A DNA stretch of 64,000 bases, from positions 65,297-129,296 of the forward strand of contig JAHDFY010000001.1 in NCBI GenBank assembly GCA_020627925.1. The letters run 5' to 3'. This document shows, one piece after another, positions 13,711-57,513 of the stretch. Under the pieces are notes generated by a model, which ran no database searches, had not been told where the DNA came from, and was given only the letters and a program-made list of their open reading frames with translations. Positions within the stretch are counted from its first letter, which is position 1; every line of letters starts with the position of its first letter. This DNA is from a bacterium (GTDB lineage: Bacteria > Patescibacteriota > Gracilibacteria > Absconditabacterales > Absconditicoccaceae). A program made the translations under genes and the position numbers.

Positions 13711-16617
13711 ATGACATTAGGAGCAAGTGAAAACAATAAAGAGAATATTTCGCAGGTCTCAACTACCGAAAGCAAAGAGACAAAAAAACATCAGGAAACC
13801 CAAAAGGTTACTGATGCTTTTTCACAAGAATTACAATTGGATCATCACAGTTTACAAAACGAACTACAAACACAAAACAACAAAAAAAATCAAGAACTAG
13901 TAGAAAATACACACAAAATCAACAATGACTTAGAATCTCTCAAAAAAAAACCATTGCCCCACACCTATCCGCTTATCAAAGAATCTCCATTAGGACAAGA
14001 GTTAGGTCCAGAAAAAACATCTGAGTTATTTGGACAGTTGGATAATATGGGAGAAAAAATGCTCAATAACTTTGTTGGAGGTCAAGAAATCGTAGCATCA
14101 ATTCTCACACCACAACAAAAACAAGTAATGTTGCGTTGTTTCACCATCTCTCTGTCAGAATCAATACAAACACAAGAAACAACAGTAGAAAGCGGAATAA
14201 TAGGAAAATTTGGCTGATTATTAGGAGGACAAGTAGGATCGTTGTTACAAGGAAATGGTGAAGAAATAAATTTCACATCTCTTGTGGGAACAATGCTTAC
14301 CCAAACAAGCAAATATCCATGATTCAAAATCCGTGCCAAAAGAATGCAACAAATAGCAAAAGAACTCACAAAATACAAATGAAAAAAAGAGCTTACCCTC
14401 AACACCAAAGACCTACTTGCATGGTTTGATGGAACTATGGACAAAACCGAATTAACGAGCAAAATTATACTCTCCCAACCAAACAGCTTAGATCCCCAAA
14501 GCCTCATAGATCACGCAAAAAACATCTCCCTTAATGAACAGTGAATAGCACTACTACAACAAATGACTGATATTTCCACCCAAGGAAGTTTATTGGATGA
14601 AACAGAAAGAGAACAGCAAGCAAATGAAATGTATGGATCCATGTACGATATTATTAAGTCAGTGTGATCATGGTTTGGGTACTCATCTCCCAAACAACTC
14701 ATTGAATCAGTAGGCATGGGAAGTAGCATGAGCATGGTACTGAGTCGGTTCGGGTACAAAGGAGGTGTTGATGAGCTTCATCAACATTACCTACTCAACA
14801 AAGTAAGTGAAGATCTGAGCAACATCAACCAAAAGGAATGTATTAGTGAAATATTTTCATTGACAAAATCAATGGTCCTTGACAAGCAAAATTATCCACC
14901 AGAAAACTCATTTATTAGAAAAATAACGGCAAGTGGAATACAACAACAAGATGAGTTATTTTCACTCATGCCTACCAACAAAAAAATTCTCACAGATGCT
15001 CTTACTCGTTCTCTACAAAACACGGGTGCTATGCCAGGAACTCATCTACTTCAGCGCTACACAAATTGCGTCACGCAACAAACAGACAAAAATGGAAATA
15101 CTCAAATAACTATTGATAAAAATAAATTTGATGCAGAACAATTTGTAGGAGCTTATATGAAAAAAGCGTGAACAAAAGATTTTTTTGCTATGCTAAAAAA
15201 AATAGATGAAACAAATAAAGACTTCTTTCACGGACCAGAGGACGTCGTGTCTGCGTGGGCATTGAATGTTTTTTCTGATTATGGAACACAAAGCTTTTTG
15301 GATGGTGCACTAACATTGTGAGATAGTGAGGAAGACTTTATTGCAGTTGACCTTACTCCCGCTCAACCACCACAAACGCCACAGCAACCCACATCAACAG
15401 CAAACACAACGTGATACGGTTCTTACAGTCCTTTGACAACTTCTGCCATGGGAGCAGCTCTCTCACTCAATAACCATGTCGGTTCAGTCAATTACAACAA
15501 AGCTTACATAGAACAGCTAGCGATTAATAAGCCAAATATCAATTATGCGCAAGACAAAGAGTTTATCAAATATTTGGTTGTCTTAGAAATAGAACACCAA
15601 CTTCCAATGGGTACAATGCGATCGTATATGATGAAAGAAAGTTCGTGACGCTTGTACAAAGACAATGAATTGATCAAATGAGCGAAACTCAAAGACGGAA
15701 GATTTGCCAAATGACTTTTTCAATTTACGGAAGGAACGGGAAGGGATTACTGATTACAAATTTCTACCACGTACCAACAATTAGGTTATCCCGATATCGA
15801 CGAAAGAGATAATCCTGTTACCTGCGCACGTGCTGCTGCAAAAAAATTAGCAAAAGATGGAAAAGCCGCCTCGTGAAATTTTGATATGAAACGCGCACAA
15901 ACCAAATATTATGGTGCCTACGACCAAAAATACTACGACTATATCATACAACATATGTCAACATTTCAGCAAAAATACGGTCATTTGGTACAACAAACAG
16001 AAAACATACAACAGGGAAATATTGATCAACACAATGGCAGCTACCAAGAAGCAAAAAATAATAAATTTGGGTTTGTTGAACAATCACCACTCTCAACACA
16101 CAATGCTTACAAAAATCATGGAAGAGTCAGTGGTTTTATCAATTGTTCAAGATCATCAAGAGTAACAAAAGAGTGAATAAAATATCTCTATGAGGTAGAA
16201 AAGAAAAAAACGCTCGTTTGTGTCGCCGCAGAAATTTCACAAGAAGACAGACAATATGCGCAATCATTAGGAATGAATGTGATATACCAACCGCTTACTT
16301 CCAAACCAGAAGATATGAATAAAGAAACGATGTTTCGTATTTGTAAAGCATTTCTTGAGGGAGGAACGCATTCCATGTGTAATCATGGAGCCGACAGAAA
16401 TGGTTTTGTACTTGCCATGGTAAGAAGACTCACACAGTGACGAACTGCTGCGCAAGCATTAGACGAACTATACCTCTACAACAAAAAAGTGGATCCACGT
16501 AACAACAATCAACAATGGATCAATATTTATGAGCCATTTCGTAAGGCAATTCAAACAGAAAATTACTTTCAGTTTAGTGCCCAAGAGTTAGAACAGCTCA
16601 AAATAAAGGAATCATAA
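13711..16617 (+). CDS. Large protein: lytic-transglycosylase-like plus tyrosine-phosphatase-like domains
   Basis: 968 residues, about 18 UGA glycines. No signal peptide; residues 1-100 are Gln/Asn/Lys-rich and probably coiled. The middle (about 100-540) is helical and unrecognised. A Pro/Thr linker (PPQTPQQPTSTANTTG, about 555-570) precedes an SLT-like domain: MKESSGRLY with Glu643 in the catalytic position, then AKGLFQFTEGTGRDYG. The C-terminal part (about 800-930) has VCVAAEISQEDRQYAQSLG and HSMCNHGADRNG, a CX5R loop with Cys890 and Arg896, then LTQGRTAAQALDEL as in DSP-like phosphatases. Domain calls are from motifs; the pairing is unusual. The N-terminus shows no export route. Confidence 0.75.
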
Positions 16618-54894: not shown

Positions 54895-57513
54895 ATGCCA
54901 TGACCAAACGGAGGTCCAGAAACAAGATCAACCGAATCGCTGGGCCAACAAACCAATCTATCTCCTGCTATATCCAAAAACAACGTATTACAAGCACATA
55001 ATACCAATTTTTCTCTGAGCAACGAACAGTTGCAAGCAGCACTCGATGCAGGACAACAACCTCTCGACCAGAAAAAAGAATTCATCATCCAGCTCATTGC
55101 AACCAAGGGCGATACATGGTTTGATAATTTTCGCTTTGGATCAAACCAAGAAAAAAACAATGCCAATCTAAGCAAGCTTCTCGCCTACGCATTCAAAAAA
55201 GACCTCAACAAAGGAGAATTCAAAGACCTATGTGAAGCAAAGCTTGCAAAGTTCAACAATCCGACCCAAGACATGAGTCCTATGCAAAACCTTCTCTACA
55301 TTGGTTTTGACAATGAAATACAAGGAAATCAAACATTACAAGCCAAGCGACAAGAATTCCAACAAACACAAGGACAAACTATACAAGGAGATAATCGACA
55401 AAAAGCAGCATTCGTGATGGAGTTTTTTGATCAAAATGGAGATGTCAAAAAAGGAAAAGTAGAAAATTATCAAGATGTTACTAAAGAAATAAAAGAAAAA
55501 ACTCAAAATGAAAAAATTTGAGAATTAATAAACTACGTAAAGGCAAAAAATACAGAACTCCTCGCCAACCAAGAATTTTCGCAAGAGTTGCAAGCATTTG
55601 AAAACAACCCAGAACTGATCAAAGATCCTGCTATGGAGCAAAAAGTGGCACAACTCAATCAACAGCAAGGGCTAACAGGAGAGCAAGCCATTACCGTACG
55701 TGATATCATGATGGGAGAAATGATATTACAAAACCAAGACAAGTACGCCAATCTTGTCGACGATGAATATCTCCAAAACATCACCGCAATTAGAGAAAGC
55801 ATGAATTTGGCGCCAAGTACCATGCCTCATGTAGATTTGATGGAAAGAAGCGCCGCGACACAACCAGCAGAGCTCAATATGAGCAATATCGACAACAACG
55901 CGCATATGATCCAAGGGTTGGAGCAAACGATACAACAGACACCCAACAATTTTCAAACACCCGAAGCCCTAGAAAAGGCGGTTGATGTCGAAGACCCGAC
56001 TATCTTCACCAACTTCTTGCCCAACATCACCAATGGCATACCCGAAAATTTTGCAGAAAGGCTCAACAATCACTTTCAAGACAATGAGATCATCGCACAA
56101 AAAGAATCGATGATTGCCCATTATCAATATCTGGAAATGGCAATAAACAACCCACAAGCACTAGCGACGACCTTACAACAAACAAGGTCCATCCCCGATA
56201 GTGAAAAACAAAACGCCATCAACTATTACACCACAATGCAACCAGAGCAGTTACAAAATGAATACCTCAAAGCGCAAAATCAAGCGGCGTTCATCGTCAA
56301 AGAGATGATGCTTCCGGTCACCAACAATATATTCAAACAAGAATCCGTCGCTGGTTTTCTTGATAATGTATCAGATTATTTTGCCGACATCGGTAGTGAT
56401 TTTGTCTTGCTCGATGGGCAAGGTGCAACCATGACACCAGAAGGCGGCTTGCAAGTAGAACTCGCCGTCAAAGACGTCAACGGACAGCTTCCCTTGGACG
56501 AAAATGGAAATCCGACAGCAAGCACCAAAGTCGTGTTTGGACCAGATGGAAGTGCCTCTATCGTAGACCCATTGGGAGGAGATATGGGATATATCTCCTA
56601 TGAAATGAAACAAATACTTGAGGGGATTCCTACAGCGAAAGACATCAACAACCCTCAAGGCATTCGTATGGACAGAGTATTAGAAAAAGCTGGAAACGGA
56701 TATGGCAACAAAAAACGAGAAGCAATGGAGTCATTGATGGGAAAAGCAGTCAAAAACCATGCAGATTCCCTACACAAAAGCAATGCTGCAGAAGTCAAAT
56801 CGCAAATACACTATCATCTCAACAAAATTAGGACGCAAGACCAATGTATGCAAATAGCCATGAAACAACGATGATTAACGGCAATGGAAGCGAATCAACC
56901 TGGTCCATATCAAACATTTGCTCAAAGGTTCTCATACAAAAAATTCAAAGAAGGAGGAAATCCTCCACAGTTGAGTGCAAGTGATCCAGAATTTGCGTCA
57001 TTCTATCGTATGGCAAAGATCATTGATCGTACTACCGACAACATGTCCGCAAATGAACAAAAAAACCTCATACAACAACTCAAAAATTTACAAGATGGTA
57101 TCGCAAAACGAGCAAGTTCACAACAAGATGAGGCACTCAATAAGGATCCTCTGATGAGAGGAATCGTTTCACAAGAAGCAAGAAAAAAGGCGAGTGCCTT
57201 TCCTAACCTCATCGACATGATGTGTAGAGACAAAAATGATCGTACCAAAACCGTAGAACCGCAGCTGATACAAGCGACCACCGAGCTAATCACCAATCGG
57301 GATCCAGCAAGGCCAGACAGACCACTGTTTGAAAGGCCTGCATTCAATGTAATCAAAGGTTATCCCAATGCATTGGACAAAATAGAGCACAATTATCGGG
57401 ATGTCATCGAACAAAATCATGAACTTGCAGACAATTGGGTAGAGCAAGAACTTGATAACTTGGGCGAAACAGAAACCGATAACATATACAAACAATTTAG
57501 TCAACCAGCATAA
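54895..57513 (+). CDS. Large Gln/Asn-rich protein, unknown
   Basis: 872 residues; only three UGA glycines. No signal peptide or membrane helix, so probably cytoplasmic unless exported another way. Helical, Gln/Asn-rich throughout; one beta-like stretch (about 505-565: FVLLDGQGATMTPEGGLQVELAVKDVNGQLPLDENGNPTASTKVVFGPDGSASIVDPLGGD). C-terminal region RTTDNMSANEQKNLIQQLKNLQ. ATG at 54895 follows a TAG in the same frame 54 bases upstream. General composition resembles the 968-residue gene at 13711, but no homologous domain is recognised. Confidence 0.75.

Follow-up and report, generated by a model that had tools for sequence, protein, structure and literature searches.

A transglycosylase-like and phosphatase-like fusion behind a conserved N-terminal module, a candidate wall-breaching protein of the Absconditabacteria lineage

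What could a peptidoglycan-cutting segment and a phosphatase-like segment do within one and the same protein? The question is raised by an open reading frame of 968 residues, located on the forward strand (as are all the features of the protein described below) at positions 13711..16617 of the 64,000-nucleotide stretch of DNA analyzed here, hereafter the window. The genome reads TGA as glycine (code 25), and under this code the frame, a single-copy gene, is uninterrupted over its whole length, with 15 TGA-encoded glycines that include G646 of the ESSG motif and G668 of the GLFQF motif; the reading of the same interval with code 11 contains many stops and was rejected. A preliminary description had reported an SLT-type and a DSP/PTP-like segment in this protein, with E643 in ESSG, GLFQF at residues 668 to 672, and CNHGADR at residues 890 to 896. 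In the code 25 translation all these residues occupy those sites, and both segments were recovered by profiles (PF01464 and PF03162).

The SLT-like lytic transglycosylase domain extends from residue 606 to residue 745 (15526..15945), as indicated by Pfam, PHROG, and the profile of the relatives. On the separate segment, PF01464 (SLT) gave an E value of 3.5e-4 and 20.6 bits, just under the curated cutoff of 21.3, which the SLT-bearing relatives, different from the window protein, exceed. The first two SLT motifs are present: the putative catalytic Glu643 (15637..15639), in the ES.G context, is invariant among the SLT-bearing relatives, as are G668, L669, F670, and F672 of the second motif, GLFQF (15712..15726). 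The third motif (AYNAG/YNAG) could not be aligned, the relatives having AHYNAGP where the window protein shows a gap followed by TKYYG.

The PTP/DSP-like domain occupies residues about 800 to 945 (16108..16545). PF03162 (Y_phosphatase2) matched the separate segment with an E value of 7.3e-6 and 26.1 bits, just under the curated cutoff of 27, and the best PDB relative of the C terminus was the TpbA phosphatase (E value of 0.011). Although a CX5R pattern on its own is weak and nonsignificant evidence, the domain shares with TpbA and Y_phosphatase2 (PF03162; PDB 2m3v and 4r0s) both this loop, CNHGADR (16378..16398), with C890 and R896 assigned by translation and alignment, and an upstream acid, Asp868 (16312..16314), a candidate general acid whose KPED context aligns with the NPWD of a TpbA-like protein from a class relative. 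However, two usually conserved positions of the loop depart from these enzymes, with Met889 where a His normally precedes the Cys and Asn897 where a Ser/Thr normally follows the Arg; furthermore, TpbA is a stand-alone exported enzyme, whereas here the domain is fused to a lytic transglycosylase. Because of the third SLT motif and of these two replacements, the catalytic activity of both domains is only putative. No close relatives of the phosphatase-like domain were found in plasmids or in the other genomes of the family, so that among 49 family genomes it is confined to the window protein and looks like a private acquisition. The earlier remark that no known family combines the two domains agrees with the absence of the fusion from every other genome searched: the SLT-PTP combination is a private variant of the window genome.

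What the protein shares with its relatives is its front part. The N-terminal module comprises residues 1 to 548 (13711..15354), is common to the relatives, and lacks a signal peptide; its most conserved motif, GYKGGVDELHQHYLLNK (residues 348 to 364, 14752..14802), contains the invariant G348, G351, G352, L356, and K364. In a search of 99 relatives, the shared region ran from about residue 210 to residue 720. A profile of the relatives built without the window protein matched residues 264 to 719 (E value of 1e-35), and an N-module profile built in the same way matched residues 316 to 520 (E value of 1.7e-10), while none of 200 shuffled sequences was matched by either profile. A broad N-module profile found the module, always as one copy, in 27 of the 49 genomes of the family, which corresponds to the Absconditabacteria/SR1-Gracilibacteria lineage (some of its loci come from metagenome-assembled genomes named as "candidate division SR1" or as "Candidatus Gracilibacteria," and several isolate names point to lakes). 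All the matches of a class-wide search of 353 genomes fell inside this one family, and a sample of the phylum returned only the window genome itself and one marginal short match. Since the remaining 22 family genomes do without it, the module is not essential to the lifestyle. No description of the module family was found in the literature searched, a search beyond whose reach most subscription papers lay. Two further members deserve mention: a 628-residue module protein with no recognizable enzyme at its end, adjoined by apparent ribosomal protein genes (L157, G021:C2, 2480-4366), and a gene of genome G003 that is broken into two open reading frames ahead of the cargo, by a frameshift or an assembly error (L061:3885-6081).

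A phage-derived tail or virion lysin, either domesticated or within a prophage, has to be considered at this point, because the PHROG "lytic tail protein" matches residues 628 to 740 (E value of 5.7e-5), phage tape-measure lysins weakly match the SLT part, and some of the relatives' cargo is tail-lysozyme-like. However, searches of viral contigs, PHROGs, and the PDB with the module gave no match, which disfavors a phage origin, and the chromosomal locus of the relatives is conserved across genera; we therefore consider this explanation very improbable.

Behind the module, the enzymatic end is exchanged. SLT followed by SGNH occurs in five genomes, with GDSL/SGNH over the cutoff in three of them, and the other cargo includes SLT alone, another type of lytic transglycosylase with SGNH, GH19-like domains, GH19 with SGNH, and VanY, the last one over the cutoff; glucosaminidase-like and tail-lysozyme-like ends were matched weakly, and a GH108-like end was judged by eye only. 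In the module tree, at least 13 changes of cargo are required among 24 proteins, and the new cargo is nearly always of a peptidoglycan-active type. In particular, well-supported sisters carry unlike cargo, as in the pairs L012 (SLT) and L050 (tail-lysozyme-like), L016 (SLT with SGNH) and L048 (GH108-like), and L052 (glucosaminidase-like) and L054 (VanY); the window protein forms a long branch, the placement of which is unsure. A front part that is kept while the back is swapped for differing wall-degrading enzymes suggests a tool to breach the walls of other cells. By analogy with the X-T4SS effectors considered below, we tentatively propose, as a reading that falls a little short of probable, that the window protein is modular, leaves the cell independently of Sec, and serves to breach the walls of host or prey cells.

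The manner of export was approached from both ends of the protein. By hydropathy, the first 45 residues are free of hydrophobic segments and hence of a Sec signal peptide, as the preliminary description had maintained, whereas a conventional lytic transglycosylase of the same genome has a signal-like N-terminal segment; this difference favors the Sec-independent reading. At the other end, 17 of 27 complete proteins terminate with Ala, compared to about 4% of 640 open reading frames on three contigs, the former count including the module-less SLT protein of G020 and being drawn from relatives that are not independent of each other; for this reason, and since its background count is off by one, the Fisher value for the difference was set aside. 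Tails of the kind KNLA, ENIA, SYIA, DNVA, YNLA, and DEIA recur behind unrelated cargo (for example, in L049, L050, L051, L052, L053, L055, and L060) and could represent a tag for export or for turnover/degradation; the window protein ends with KIKES and has no C-terminal Ala. Elsewhere in the window, an 872-residue hydrophilic protein (54895-57513, forward strand) with no obvious signal peptide ends with QPA.

The protein might instead be an autolysin or cell division hydrolase that is stored in the cytoplasm, evolves fast at its enzymatic end, and plays no part in contacts between cells. The single copy per genome and the noncanonical catalytic motifs of the window copy would suit such an enzyme, as would a C-terminal Ala that acted as a proteolysis tag. 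Nonetheless, we regard this as improbable, given that the same genome possesses the conventional signal-bearing transglycosylase, that 22 of the 49 genomes lack the gene, and that the type of enzyme has been replaced repeatedly.

The genomic context of the relatives points to a surface machine. Many of them have the gene next to a conserved locus encoding a PilT ATPase (TIGR01420, 361.6 bits), a 136-residue protein without a Pfam name that is present in 44 of the 49 family genomes, and two T4SS-pilin-like proteins, one of which is over the cutoff of PF18895; the locus is found, for instance, at L015:9640-12501 and, outside the window, at G000:C5:220586-223632. With the 136-residue protein as the marker for distance, the module gene and the locus share a contig in 16 genomes and lie at most 2.5 kb apart in 14 of these, a linkage that suggests function without proving it, since much of it may descend from one event. 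The distance is larger in G021 (11.5 kb) and in the window genome itself (141 kb). Moreover, T4SS-pilin-like genes are multicopy in all 49 genomes, and a VirB4-type ATPase (PF12846) was over the cutoff in only 2 of 10 genomes, so that a full T4SS would be conjectural. The supposition that every pilT/pilin locus carries a hydrolase was rejected: among 13 such loci read by eye in module-less genomes, including two truncated at the end of a contig, that of G029 alone has one (GH19-like). Separately, in two species of genus g21, the same locus position is occupied by short module-less proteins with another N terminus (L165:2653-3633, GH19-like, and L014:5856-6968, SLT).

The same linkage to pilT and T4SS-pilin-like genes also supports the main and serious rival, namely, a VirB1- or FlgJ-like peptidoglycan hydrolase with which the cell would make room in its own wall for a pilus or a machine resembling a T4SS. 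Helpers of this sort typically carry SLT domains, and the VirB1-type hydrolases of Gram-positive bacteria are two-domain proteins (PMC12102498), a likeness with the SLT and additional catalytic domain found here. Different from the VirB1 type, however, the window protein has a large N-terminal module and no Sec signal, its gene is not near pilin genes, and the family to which its module belongs offers many alternative enzyme types. The range of cargo (VanY, GH19-like, SGNH, glucosaminidase-like, and PTP) exceeds what a helper would be expected to need, and most module-less genomes have no such neighbor at their pilT/pilin loci. FlgJ consists of a scaffold part and a muramidase and is exported by the machine itself. 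Fusions of this type resemble the window protein in having a nonenzymatic N-terminal part, a C-terminal peptidoglycan hydrolase, and no Sec signal, whereas the cargo of the N-module family varies in type between close species. Taken together, we hold this rival to be rather unlikely, albeit one of real weight.

For the export against other cells that we prefer, a close parallel is offered by the X-Tfes, the antibacterial effectors of the Xanthomonadales X-T4SS, which are made for T4SS export and likewise join a constant part to exchangeable, mostly peptidoglycan-degrading domains (PMC6536674). However, the constant XVIPCD of the X-Tfes is placed at the C terminus, which in the window protein is the PTP-like domain, whereas the constant module is N-terminal here and unrelated to any known family; in addition, the X-Tfes are T4SS exported, while the T4SS link of the present family rests on the pilT and pilin-like genes of the relatives.

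Cultured Absconditabacteria are predatory epibionts that kill their hosts, and their wall hydrolases have been proposed to act against the prey wall (PMC8080830, PMC11452946); the source bacterium is tiny and probably host dependent. In the mechanism that we propose, the conserved N-terminal module (about 400 to 550 residues) would probably serve for delivery or anchoring. Behind it comes the exchangeable wall-degrading end, represented in the window version by the SLT-like transglycosylase and the private phosphatase-like domain. The protein would leave the cell by a route other than Sec, using or accompanying a surface machine related to pili or to a T4SS, and would cut the wall of its host or prey, while the phosphatase-like part might, as a guess, dephosphorylate a target (a wall polymer or a protein) or be a binding remnant. 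This reading is strengthened by the retention of the module through so many changes of enzyme and is supported by the locus linkage and by the C-terminal Ala shared despite unrelated cargo; it is weakened by the distance of the window copy from the pilin locus and its KES ending, by the nonconserved third SLT motif and PTP loop positions, by the multicopy nature of the pilin-like genes, and by the genomes that lack the module. The exported effector of an epibiotic or predatory lifestyle that had been suggested earlier therefore fits with regard to the exchange of cargo and the pilT/T4SS-pilin linkage of the relatives, whereas the phosphatase lends it no support.

It is possible, though in our opinion doubtful, that the N-terminal module, perhaps together with the short Ala-ending tail, constitutes an undescribed delivery device by which predatory or parasitic CPR bacteria bring exchangeable peptidoglycan-degrading ends, suited to the wall of the host, to an export machine related to the pilT/T4SS-pilin genes; the transglycosylase-phosphatase version would be that of the window. 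The finding bears on the means by which Absconditabacteria and CPR bacteria related to them get through the walls of the cells on which they live, as a family with one copy per genome, a constant front, and exchangeable wall hydrolases provides definite, testable candidate genes. A testable route of export is likewise suggested by the shared C-terminal residue and by the linkage to pilT and pilin genes, and the set of cargo domains may perhaps record how the family adapted to the walls of its hosts.
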